Below are positions 5,355 to 41,967 of a DNA stretch of 64,000 nucleotides, piece after piece. The translations under genes and the position numbers were made by a program. The number at the start of each line of letters is the position of its first letter. The stretch's first letter is position 1. The notes under the pieces are model-generated. The model did not search any database and was not told the DNA's origin. It saw only the letters and a list, made by a program, of their open reading frames with translations. The stretch spans positions 1-64,000 of the forward strand of contig NZ_RYFD01000008.1 in the NCBI RefSeq assembly GCF_004138135.1, written 5' to 3'. The DNA is from Candidatus Oscillochloris fontis. GTDB taxonomy: Bacteria > Chloroflexota > Chloroflexia > Chloroflexales > Chloroflexaceae.

Positions 5355-5490
5355 GTAAGAGTTCACACTCCTCCTAGCTTCCAGGTTTTGACGCAAAGAC
5401 GCAGAGGCGCAAAGCCTGCAATACAACCTTTGCGTCCTTGCGCCTTTGCGTCAATACGAGATTTCTTTTACCCCAAGTGTGAACAGTTAC
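5355..5490. mobile_element. 136-bp GTAA-ended MITE, complete copy
   Basis: Non-autonomous element with terminal inverted repeats (left GTAAGAGTTCACACTCCTCC, right end AAGTGTGAACAGTTAC) around a long imperfect internal palindrome built from GACGCAAAG / CTTTGCGTC blocks. It is flanked by perfect 8-bp direct repeats TCTGTTAG (5347-5354 and 5491-5498), the mark of transposition. It encodes no protein. GTAA termini and 8-bp duplications recall the IS66 family, whose transposase could mobilise it; that link is from memory of the family, not a match. Confidence 0.9.
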
Positions 5491-19318: not shown

Positions 19319-19362
19319 GTAAGCCATGGTTCGTCGCCACGTGACGACGAACCATGGCTTAC
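19319..19362. repeat. 18-bp perfect palindrome after the dipeptidase gene
   Basis: Arms 19319-19336 (GTAAGCCATGGTTCGTCG) and 19345-19362 with an 8-base loop. It follows a short tandem of CAGATTACG units (19288-19310) ending in a T-run. Bases 19363-19392 look like a broken right half of the MITE core. Between 19280 and 19683 nothing codes for protein: only this palindrome and MITE copies. Confidence 0.75.
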
Positions 19363-19400
19363 AAAACCTTTGTGCCTTGGCGTCAAAAACATAGAACATG

Positions 19401-19663
19401 GTAACTATTCACACTTGGGGTAAAAGAAACCTCGTTTTGACGCAAAGGGTTGTTGCAGGCTTTTCGCCTTTGCGTCTTGGCGTCAAAACCTGGAGGCTAG
19501 GTAACTATTCACACTTGGGGTAAAAGAAATCTCGTATTGACGCAAAGGCGCAAGGACGCAAAGGTTTTGTTGCAGGCTTTGCGCCTCTGCGTCTTTGCGT
19601 CAAAAACTGGAAGCTAGGAGAAGTGTGAACAGTTACGAGGCTAGGAGAAGTGTGAACAGTTAC
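19401..19663. mobile_element. GTAA-ended MITE interrupted by a second copy
   Basis: Outer copy: 19401-19500 plus 19645-19663, split by the inner copy and its target duplication. It starts GTAACTATTCACACTTGGGG and ends AAGTGTGAACAGTTAC. Its own flanks are perfect 8-bp repeats AGAACATG (19393-19400 and 19664-19671). Its internal core is partly deleted compared with the complete copies. Confidence 0.92.
19501..19636. mobile_element. complete MITE nested inside another MITE
   Basis: 136 bp with intact terminal inverted repeats, inserted in the outer copy. The 8-bp target sequence GAGGCTAG is present on both sides (19493-19500 and 19637-19644). Removing the inner copy and one duplicate restores the outer element. 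It is almost identical to the copy at 29358-29493, suggesting recent movement. Confidence 0.95.
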
Positions 19664-19683
19664 AGAACATGCAGGAGGTAGCC

Positions 19684-21123
19684 ATGCTCTTCGCCGGGAT
19701 AGATGTCGGCACCCAGGGAGTACGGGTCATGGTCGCCGATGTGGCCGGGGCGGTTGTGGCGCGCGCCAGCGCCCCGCTGAGTACCCACACCCACCCGGAT
19801 GGGCGGGTCGAACAGAATCCGACCGAGTGGTGGACGGCGGCGTGTAGCTGTCTGCGTCAGGTGACGCAAACATTGGGGGCGCAGGCGGAACATATTGCGG
19901 CCCTGGCAGTCACGGCGACCTCCGGCACGCTCTGTCTGCTCGATGCCCAGGGCCAGCCACTTGGCCCGGCGATCATGTACCGCGACCAGCGCGCAGTAGC
20001 CGAGGCCAACGAACTGAACCAGTGCGCGGTGGAGTTGCGCGAGCGCCTTGGCTACCGCTTCGATGCTTCCTTTGGCCTACCCAAACTGCTCTGGCTCCAG
20101 CGCCATGCCCGCGCCGAGTTATCGGCAGCGCGCTATGTGGCCCACGCCGCCGACGTGATCGTGGGCGGGCTGTGTGGCGACTATGGCACCAGTGATTGGA
20201 GCCACGCGCTCAAGAGCGGCTATGACCTGCTCAACCTGGATTGGCCGCGTGATCTACTGGCCGACCTCGATCTGCCGCTGGCCAAGTTGCCGCATGTGGT
20301 TGCCCCCGGCACCCCGATTGGCCCGATCACCCCGGTGGCTGCCCTCAGCACCGGGCTGCCGCGCAGTGCGCTGGTGGTGGCGGGCATGAGCGATGGTTGC
20401 GCGGCCCAGATCGCGGGTGGCGCGGTGCAACCCGGCCAGTGGTTGAGTGTCCTCGGCACCACACTCGTCTTTAAGGGCGTGAGCGCCGATCTGCCGCACG
20501 ACCCGCAGGGGCGGGTGTATGCCCACCGCCACCCAGAGGGCCATTGGTTGCCGGGGGCGGCCAGCAGCACTGGCGGAGCCGCCTTGGTGGCGCGTTTCCC
20601 CAAGGCCGATCTGGCCGCGCTGGATGCCCAGGCACTCGTGCGTAGCCCCGGCAGCGCCATCTGCTACCCACTCCAGGGCCAGGGCGAACGCTTCCCCTTT
20701 GTGAATCCCCAGGCACGCGGCTTTCTGAGCGGGGCCAACGCCGACGATCCTATTGCCGAGTACACCGCCATCCTAGAGGGCGTAGCCTATCTGGAGCGGC
20801 TGGCGTATGCCACCTTCAGACAGCTCGGTTACGCGGTGGTCGGGCCAATCCGAACTGCCGGAGGCGGGGCGCGCAGCCCGGTCTGGTTGCAGATCCGCGC
20901 CGACATCCTGGGGCGCACGCTCCTTGTCCCGGCGGAGGTCGAGGCCGCCTTTGGGGCCGCGATCATCGCGGCGGCGGCGCTGGCCTACCCAGGGTTGAGC
21001 GCGGCCACCCAGGCGATGTGCCACCTCCGCCATGAGGTTGCGCCGCGCCCCGATGCGGAGCGTTATAGCGCACCATACCAGCGTTTTCTGGCGGCACTTG
21101 AGGAGCGGGGTTTTGTTTCGTAA
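19684..21123 (+). CDS. FGGY-family carbohydrate kinase (xylulokinase-like)
   Basis: 479 residues from ATG 19684 (AGGAGG 5 bases upstream, partly at the MITE border). FGGY fold: N-terminal FAGIDVGTQGVRVMVAD phosphate motif, RDQRAVAEAN, GMSDGCAAQIAGGA and the C-terminal GGGARSPVWLQI adenosine motif. It phosphorylates a sugar or polyol; xylulose is likely but not proven. The TAA stop (21121-21123) lies in the GTAA terminus of a MITE. A 51-bp exact copy of its 3' region is found at 23970. Confidence 0.88.
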   Translation: MLFAGIDVGTQGVRVMVADVAGAVVARASAPLSTHTHPDGRVEQNPTEWWTAACSCLRQVTQTLGAQAEHIAALAVTATSGTLCLLDAQGQPLGPAIMYRDQRAVAEANELNQCAVELRERLGYRFDASFGLPKLLWLQRHARAELSAARYVAHAADVIVGGLCGDYGTSDWSHALKSGYDLLNLDWPRDLLADLDLPLAKLPHVVAPGTPIGPITPVAALSTGLPRSALVVAGMSDGCAAQIAGGAVQPGQWLSVLGTTLVFKGVSADLPHDPQGRVYAHRHPEGHWLPGAASSTGGAALVARFPKADLAALDAQALVRSPGSAICYPLQGQGERFPFVNPQARGFLSGANADDPIAEYTAILEGVAYLERLAYATFRQLGYAVVGPIRTAGGGARSPVWLQIRADILGRTLLVPAEVEAAFGAAIIAAAALAYPGLSAATQAMCHLRHEVAPRPDAERYSAPYQRFLAALEERGFVS

Positions 21124-21203
21124 CTATTCACACTTCTCCTAGGTACACGGGCGTCTCGTCCGCGTACCCAGCATCGTCTTTTACCCCAAGTGTGAAGAGT
21201 TAC
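21120..21203. mobile_element. short MITE variant with a different core
   Basis: 84 bp. Both ends match the family in reverse orientation (GTAACTATTCACACTTCTCC at left, TACCCCAAGTGTGAAGAGTT then AC at right), but the usual GACGCAAAG core is replaced by a small GTACACGG/CCGCGTAC hairpin. The 8-base flanks agree in 6 positions (TTTGTTTC and CTTGTTTA), so the insertion is older. It provides the kinase stop codon. Confidence 0.8.
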
Positions 21204-24067: not shown

Positions 24068-25483
24068 CTAATACCCCACCCCAATCACCATATAGGGCAT
24101 AGAGATCGCTATGCCCAGCATGATCGCCACCACCCCCCAGGCCACACGGGTTCGCGCCATGCCCCCGGCCAGCCCGATGCCCACCGCCGCCAGCGCGGGG
24201 AAGAGCAGCCGCCCTTGCCACGCCACCAAGCCCGTGGTGGCCACGAAACTGAGCACCCAGACCGCGCTCATCCCCAAGAGGATGCGCGGGCCAGCCCACA
24301 GCCGCGAGGCCGGTTTGCGGCTGGGGAGCAGCCAGCCGAGTAGCCCCAGGCCCATGACGCCCCAGTAAAACCAGAGCGCCCAGTCGGGCGGGTGGATATT
24401 CATCCAGCCAAAACGTGCCCAGAAGGAGCCAACCAGTTGGCTCAAGCCCCCCGACCACGCGGCCGGGTCGCCCCAGGCGAAGGGTTGACTCGCAAAATGG
24501 CTGCGGAAGAGCGCCGCCGCAAAGGGGTCGCCGTAGAGTTGCTGGTTACGCCAGTACCATCCGCCCGCCACCAGCAGCGCCGTTCCAGCCCACGCGATGC
24601 TATTGCGCACCATGCGCCACCAGTGTAACTGTTCACACTTGGCGTAAAGAACGCTTCTCATTGACGCCAAGGCGCCAAGACGCAAAGGTTTTGTTGCAGG
24701 CTTTGCGCCTTGGCGTCTTGGCGTCAACATCTGGAAGCTAGCATTGCGCCACGTAGCCCAGAGCAGCAGCGGGCCGAGTAGCAGGGCGCTCTGTTTGGTG
24801 AGCAGCGCGAGGCCAAAGAGCAGACCCAGCAGAAGAAACGCGGTTACGCGGCTAGGTTCGGCAGCCCGCACTACCCGCAGACAGATCCACAACACCGCCG
24901 CACTCAGCGCGGCCAGGAGCGCATCGTTACTCACCAGCGCCGCGATGAAGAGAAACTGCGGGTTGAAGGCCACACATGCCGCTGCCAGCAGCGGCGTGCT
25001 GCGCTCCCCCGGCCAGATCTGGCGTGTCGCGAGGTAGGTGCAGAGGACGGTACACGCGCCTGCGAGGGTTGAGGCCAGCCGCGCCAGCCGCCACGCCCAT
25101 GCCTGTTCCGGCCATGTGGTCTGGGGAACATGCACGAACGCCGCCGCCTGATTCCCGCCTGCCCAGATGAAATCGGGGTTGGCGCGTAGCGCGAGGTGCT
25201 GCTGCTCTGCTGGTAGCCACATCAACGCCGGGGTGGTGAGTAGGTACGCCAGGGGTGGTTGGTGGCCCTCGCCGGGGACATCGCTCTCGGCCTGGGTGGC
25301 GCGCTGCACGGGGAGTCGGTGTTCGCGGACGAGGAAGAGTCCATAGGCGAGGTGGCCGGGTTCGTCCGGCCCCTCGCCCAGCGGGATGCTCAGGTTATAG
25401 ATCCACGCGAGGGCAATGAAGATGAGCAACAGGCCCGCAATCGGGCCAGACGTGGCGAAGCGCACATGCTCCTCGCGCATCAA
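24068..25483 (-). CDS. multi-span membrane glycosyltransferase-like protein with MITE-derived loop
   Basis: 471 residues with about ten membrane helices. The first outer loop carries GEGPDEPGHLAYG, typical of GT-C type lipid-linked sugar transferases and DUF2142 proteins. Later NPQFLFIAALVSNDALLA and NQQLYGDPFAA fit the same group. Residues about 246-286 are encoded by a MITE lacking its right end, read in frame and placed in a cytoplasmic loop. It overlaps pheS by 4 bases. Donor and acceptor are unknown. Confidence 0.8.
   Translation of the reverse strand: MMREEHVRFATSGPIAGLLLIFIALAWIYNLSIPLGEGPDEPGHLAYGLFLVREHRLPVQRATQAESDVPGEGHQPPLAYLLTTPALMWLPAEQQHLALRANPDFIWAGGNQAAAFVHVPQTTWPEQAWAWRLARLASTLAGACTVLCTYLATRQIWPGERSTPLLAAACVAFNPQFLFIAALVSNDALLAALSAAVLWICLRVVRAAEPSRVTAFLLLGLLFGLALLTKQSALLLGPLLLWATWRNASFQMLTPRRQGAKPATKPLRLGALASMRSVLYAKCEQLHWWRMVRNSIAWAGTALLVAGGWYWRNQQLYGDPFAAALFRSHFASQPFAWGDPAAWSGGLSQLVGSFWARFGWMNIHPPDWALWFYWGVMGLGLLGWLLPSRKPASRLWAGPRILLGMSAVWVLSFVATTGLVAWQGRLLFPALAAVGIGLAGGMARTRVAWGVVAIMLGIAISMPYMVIGVGY
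24625..24740. mobile_element. 3'-truncated MITE inside a coding region
   Basis: Left terminus GTAACTGTTCACACTTGGCG is intact and the palindromic core is well preserved, but the right terminal repeat after GGAAGCTAG is missing. No 8-bp duplication is visible. The host gene stays open through it, so the deletion that removed the right end may have restored the frame. Confidence 0.88.
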
Positions 25484-29357: not shown

Positions 29358-29493
29358 GTAACTATTCACACTTGGGGTAAAAGAAATCTCGTATTGACGC
29401 AAAGGCGCAAGGACGCAAAGGTTTTGTTGCAGGCTTTGCGCCTCTGCGTCTTTGCGTCAAAAACTGGAAGCTAGGAGAAGTGTGAACAGTTAC
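29358..29493. mobile_element. 136-bp GTAA-ended MITE, complete copy
   Basis: Intact terminal repeats and core, nearly identical to 19501-19636. Perfect 8-bp flanking repeats TTTACCCC at 29350-29357 and 29494-29501. The right duplicate contains the stop codon of the FAD oxidoreductase. The rest of the spacer 29149-29357 is the infC leader, in which nothing else is recognised. Confidence 0.95.
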
Positions 29494-41825: not shown

Positions 41826-41967
41826 GTAATTGTTCACACTTCTCCGAGCATCCCGGTTTTGACGCAAAGACGCCAAGGCGCAAAGTCCTCACGAGAGGTT
41901 CCAATCGCAACCTTTGCGCCTTGGCGTCAATGAAAGGCTTCTGTTTACTCCACATGTGAACAGTTGC
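41826..41967. mobile_element. 142-bp GTAA-ended MITE
   Basis: Terminal repeats GTAATTGTTCACACTTCTCC and ATGTGAACAGTTGC with a palindromic GACGCAAAG core. Flanks ATGTGAGT (41818-41825) and ATGTGCGT (41968-41975) agree in 7 of 8 positions. Its right end encodes the last residues and stop of the neighbouring hydrolase. Confidence 0.9.

Follow-up and report, generated by a model that had tools for sequence, protein, structure and literature searches.

A probably IS66-derived MITE family with oriented target selection and repeated self-nesting in Candidatus Oscillochloris fontis

Introduction

Several insertion sequences enter other repeats again and again at one and the same position, among them IS30 and IS231A, which insert into terminal repeats. 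IS1111, which inserts into the GTAG palindromes of QMITE2, is cited in a review of bacterial MITEs (PMC10969869), and such elements are in general short, gene-less, present in high copy number, bounded by inverted repeats, flanked by duplications and able to form hairpins, all of which applies to the element described below; word searches of the review for IS66 and for nested elements found neither. The transposition of IS66 has been called insufficiently characterised (PMC12898284). The closest described group is the ISBst12-like single-ORF group of IS66 (e.g. ISDge4, PMC12898284), which shares with the present family GTAA-type inverted repeats and an 8-bp duplication, and shares with its autonomous relative a transposase gene that stands alone and encodes about 450 aa; unlike these elements, the element of the host genome is a 136-bp gene-less derivative.

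The locus analysed here resembles IS1111, IS30 and IS231A in the repeated use of a fixed position within a repeat, but differs from them in that the MITE hits its own family and in that the rule is a word of 3-4 bp at a fixed distance of 14 bp on one side only. A search of the open literature found no IS66 target motif, no IS66 MITE and no self-nesting bacterial MITE, and, judged against the open literature only, an IS66-derived MITE with oriented target selection would appear to be new.

Structure of the nested locus

The window, that is, the whole stretch of 64,000 nucleotides that was analysed, is contig 15 of the host genome, a fragmented draft of 4.46 Mb that is 99.99% complete; the host is akin to the green non-sulphur bacteria. 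The first-pass annotation had described a 136-bp element inserted into an outer element at positions 19393-19671, and direct reading of the sequence showed that its coordinates and flanking octamers were correct to the base. The inner MITE (19501-19636, plus strand) runs from GTAACTATTCACACTT to AAGTGTGAACAGTTAC and has GAGGCTAG on both sides (19493-19500 and 19637-19644), and the interrupted outer MITE (plus strand) has its termini at 19401 and 19663, flanked by AGAACATG at 19393-19400 and 19664-19671. The inner MITE is short, without coding capacity and bounded by terminal inverted repeats of 16 bp with 1 mismatch, the left one of the L type (19501-19516, plus strand) followed by GGGGTAAA and the right one of the R type (19621-19636, minus strand) preceded by CTAGGAG, and it contains a long internal hairpin, GACGCAAAGG...CTTTGCGTC (19537-19603, plus strand). 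A genome search with its 136 bp, as the annotation had proposed, recovered 5 other copies that were 100% identical. Removal on paper of the inner copy together with one GAGGCTAG rebuilt the outer copy, as had been claimed, with a length of 119 bp and 96% identity to single copies elsewhere; these single, un-nested copies serve as the empty form of the outer element.

The TCAA words of the locus lie on the plus strand. The target motif of the outer element is at 19383-19386, with CAA at 19384-19386, 14 bp before the left end. The motif used by the inner element is at 19483-19486 in the outer element's own hairpin arm, with CAA at 19484-19486, 14 bp before 19501. A copy of the motif at 19600-19603 inside the inner element is unoccupied; the site from 19600 to 19617 is still empty, and the next duplication would be expected at 19610-19617 (GAAGCTAG).

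High similarity among the copies and a tandem repeat of the right 27 bp (family D4) might be seen if the repeat had been made by tandem duplication, slippage or recombination between copies instead of transposition. However, the junctions lie exactly at the terminal inverted repeats, and at the homologous position the inner copy reads GAAGCTAG whereas both duplicates read GAGGCTAG, so that the duplicated octamer derives from the outer copy, which fits the prediction for insertion and not that for tandem duplication. With the 8-bp duplications of single copies standing in unrelated sequence elsewhere in the genome, an origin other than transposition is almost certainly wrong.

On the right, the outer duplication lies directly 5' of AGGAGG (19673-19678), the ribosome-binding site of an FGGY-family carbohydrate kinase gene with a probable ATG at 19684, and ends 12 bp upstream of that codon; the insertion thus parts the kinase gene from upstream promoters. 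Just left of the outer element, a gapless palindrome, GTAAGCCATGGTTCGTCGCCAC/GTGACGACGAACCATGGCTTAC (19319-19362), begins with GTAA and ends with TTAC, has no matching 8-bp flanks and is the sole copy in the window.

Further copies were present in the window. Single 136-bp copies were located at 5355-5490 (minus strand, duplication TCTGTTAG) and 29358-29493 (plus strand, duplication TTTACCCC), and a 142-bp copy at 41826-41967 (minus strand, duplication ATGTGAGT/ATGTGCGT), all with CAA at the right spacing. An 84-bp copy with a different short core (21120-21203, minus strand) has a decayed duplication (2 of 8 bases differ) and a site without CAA, and a one-ended copy (24625-24745, plus strand) has kept the left end and hairpin and lost the right end.

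Distribution of the family in the genome

With up to one mismatch allowed, the terminal 16-mer matched the host genome 146 + 141 times and the reversed control 0 times, and together with the lack of genes and the 16-bp inverted repeats this bears out the earlier assignment as a MITE. The family numbers far more than a hundred copies. The flanks were analysed in 115 clusters, which are part of the genome's copies, and an 8-bp duplication with at most 1 difference was found in 46 of the 66 two-ended clusters; the 8-bp duplication claimed for the nested locus is thus seen at most complete copies. Most copies were 125-150 bp long, some with other cores (84, 92 and 314 bp). The core hairpin was very stable (z -8.6), and no Rfam family passed the cut-off.

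Unpaired ends proved to be truncated copies when surrounding regions of about 10 kb were inspected. One-ended copies that kept one terminus and the hairpin were L051, L053, L054, L060, L069, L078 and the copy at 24625 in the window, and in one-ended copies the break frequently lay close to the hairpin's foot. Copies at L063:4900-5049 (minus strand), L085:4650-4963 and L085:7291 had the same ends with unrelated palindromic cores (GGGCGATGCTTCGCCCCTAC; GGCCCTCACCCCCAGCCCCTCTCCC type), which at L063 and L085 look as though they had been exchanged or captured. Two left-type ends each, with perfect 8-bp duplications, were seen at L065:4911-5002 and L178:854-937. Contigs C137 and C134 (L017 and L020, bases 1630-1706) have the same final sequence, which directly follows a broken left terminus (GTCCGTAAATTAAGTTTCC...) and may belong to a different insertion sequence at which the assembly breaks off.

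The MITE termini were absent from all five congeners searched, and the two genes that flank the nested locus are not neighbours in these congeners, which offered no syntenic empty site. Related core hairpins occur without MITE termini in some congeners and in other relatives. Because the congeners lack the termini and yet the core hairpin occurs alone there, the family resembles a burst at the level of the species, and the core of the element would be an older dispersed repeat.

Autonomous IS66 relatives

An autonomous transposon of IS66 type with the same termini had been expected from the ends and the duplication length, and it was found in Oscillochloris sp. RM1_1_4, of the same family as the host, and not in the host genome. 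This IS66-family element (L095:1501-2939) is 1,439 bp long, has both termini and shares 23-28 bp of end sequence with the MITE, and the ends and subterminal bases common to the two read GTAACTGTTCACACTTGGGGTAAAGGAA...CTAGGAGAAGTGTGAACACTTAC. It is filled by one transposase frame of 454 aa, without tnpA or tnpB, which scored 163.7 bits against PF03050 and 268.6 bits against NF033517 (NCBIfam transpos_IS66); by this organisation, a single transposase gene, the element is provisionally assigned as ISBst12-like. The same end types recur in Chloroflexi REEB485, whose copy (L191) encodes a protein with 85% identity, and a further autonomous IS66 (L192) has 47% identity and an intact duplication. The two closest autonomous copies, L095 and L191, had no matching 8-bp duplications, though the target word was present. 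The named IS66 proteins listed from plasmids were less than 31% identical to the transposases of these relatives. In sister genera, related 112-bp MITEs with the same termini and a different core, TGGGAGCGAGG..., were observed (L094, L100, L271-L278 and others).

The ends starting with GTAA, the 8-bp duplication and a matching-end element that encodes an IS66 transposase argue for derivation of the MITE from IS66, and with the RM1_1_4 element the IS66 prediction holds. The autonomous parent with matching ends is thus present in relatives (L095, L191) and absent from the host genome, where searches by family and by protein found neither PF03050 nor anything related to the IS66 protein. For this reason, and because several copies are 100% identical and hence recently active, a non-IS66 transposase of the host genome was considered as the mover, with the likeness of the ends to the relatives' IS66 due to descent only. 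This is improbable, as the MITE agrees with the relatives' IS66 in its ends, subterminal bases, duplication length and target motif, and the stretches of about 10 kb inspected around unpaired ends contained no longer element with a second, matching terminus at its far side. Mobilisation by an IS66 transposase of the relatives' type is the preferred reading; since the host genome lacks an IS66 gene, we infer the donor, which would once have been present and then lost, or be missing from the assembly, a fragmented draft from which a lost contig could hold the gene.

One-sided target motif

When the flanks of complete copies were aligned in a common orientation, a strong CAA signal appeared outside the left end, at a distance of exactly 14 bp. 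The base in front of it was G or T, it often formed part of GCGTCAA, and the right side had no comparable signal. At 14 bp, CAA was present in 34 of 60 non-redundant insertions, where about 1 was expected (p ~4e-46, with sites taken as independent once a simple redundancy filter had been applied, as for all p-values and E-values here), and at every other distance in 0-3 of the 60. In the full set, 49 of 73 left sides carried CAA against 5 of 73 mirrored right sides. The left end itself carries TTG at bases 15-17, which gives a dyad across the left junction, CAA-N14 | N14-TTG, and suggests, as a speculation, that one DNA-binding part may read both end and target.

About a dozen non-nested insertions adjoin dispersed GCGTCAA hairpins, and the hairpin is as stable as noted above, so the signal could reflect a preference for such structures (cruciforms, intergenic safe sites) and not for the word. 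Most CAA-bearing targets, however, are unrelated unique sequence without a hairpin, and the distance is fixed to the nucleotide, with CAA at 14 bp in 34 cases, at 13 bp in 2 and at 15 bp in 1, which makes a structural preference highly improbable; the word itself is probably what the transposase reads.

The motif recurs in several related genera. Among relatives, CAA stood at 14 bp in 22 of 72 left ends (p ~8e-20) and 2 of 39 right ends. CAA at the exact spacing was missing in about a third of host copies and two thirds of the relatives' left ends, in some cases perhaps through decay. End mimicry, in which the target CAA would mirror the TTG of the left end, stays a speculation, as no covariation was found across relatives (15/46 vs 7/27, p 0.6).

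The autonomous IS66 copies L095, L191 and L192 adjoin the CAA motif, and at L194, L195/L202 and L200 it was not at the site. Unlike the host MITE, the distant IS66 elements tested lacked the one-sided motif: it was absent at L122, L124, L129 and L210, whose duplications are intact (one side of L129 is cut by a contig end), and likewise at a single IS66 element of G083 in all of its eight copies examined, of which seven have intact duplications. Given its absence at these distant controls, the target rule looks specific to this clade.

Recurrent self-nesting

The right hairpin arm reads GCGTCAA-AACCTG-GAGGCTAG-GAGAAGTGTGAACAGTTAC, that is, the motif, six bases, the octamer and the last 19 bp, and because GCGTCAA in the arm supplies the motif the element is its own target. 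A search for the nested-junction pattern found 12 loci in the genome, which agree in the internal position and the orientation of the insertion, and 0 in the control. Going beyond the first-pass annotation, at least 12 nests, that of the window included, occupy this internal site, and the one-sided motif explains the nesting. In the nine nests that were dissected by script, a constant 27 bp separated the right ends of the inner and outer copies. One locus, L062, was nested twice (triple nest). A few nests occurred at other internal positions (L002, L087 and L152), from which it follows that the hot spot is not a product of the search design.

The octamer GAGGCTAG recurs at five of the 12 junctions, and composites keep intact outer ends and could be mobile, so that a nested pair might have formed once and then transposed by its outer ends, leaving look-alike loci without a true hot spot. 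Yet the 12 junctions carry seven different octamers, and the nine outer copies, with the inner ones discounted, were all different (119-150 bp, 82-98% identity among nests), had differing outer duplications of their own and in nearly all cases had a single copy, not another nest, as their nearest match. The distinct outer copies already largely refute a single origin, the motif rule predicts the site independently, and spread of one composite is accordingly quite improbable. Independent insertion at the same internal site is preferred.

Discussion

The explanation regarded as very probable is a high-copy MITE family from a single-gene (ISBst12-like) IS66 element, with oriented target selection and self-nesting. 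It draws on sequence comparisons that showed the insertion, the duplication length, the family, the motif with its spacing and orientation, the recurrence of the nests and the autonomous match in relatives. An IS66 transposase acting in trans, its donor gene not detectable in the host genome today, would cut at the GTAAC ends and insert copies with 8-bp duplication. The left (GGGG-side) end would be joined 14 bp downstream of (G/T)CAA, best GCGTCAA, the 14 bp consisting of 6 bp and the 8 bp of the later duplication. As the right arm of the MITE hairpin ends in GCGTCAA, it would offer a good target 27 bp from the right end of the element, and new copies would for that reason keep landing in old copies there, parallel to them, and so build up nested arrays such as 19401-19663 and, in one case, a triple nest.

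A broader reading is tentative and rather doubtful: a clade of IS66 transposases in Chloroflexota may read a short oriented word 14 bp from the joining point of the left end, possibly via the DNA-binding part that reads the end, and MITE hairpin cores with the word may act as self-targets that soak up insertions and spare genes. IS66 is widespread, and a one-sided word whose distance is the same in several genera offers a direct way into how such a transposase chooses its target and orientation. A landing site carried within the element is also a simple reason for some MITEs piling up in themselves.
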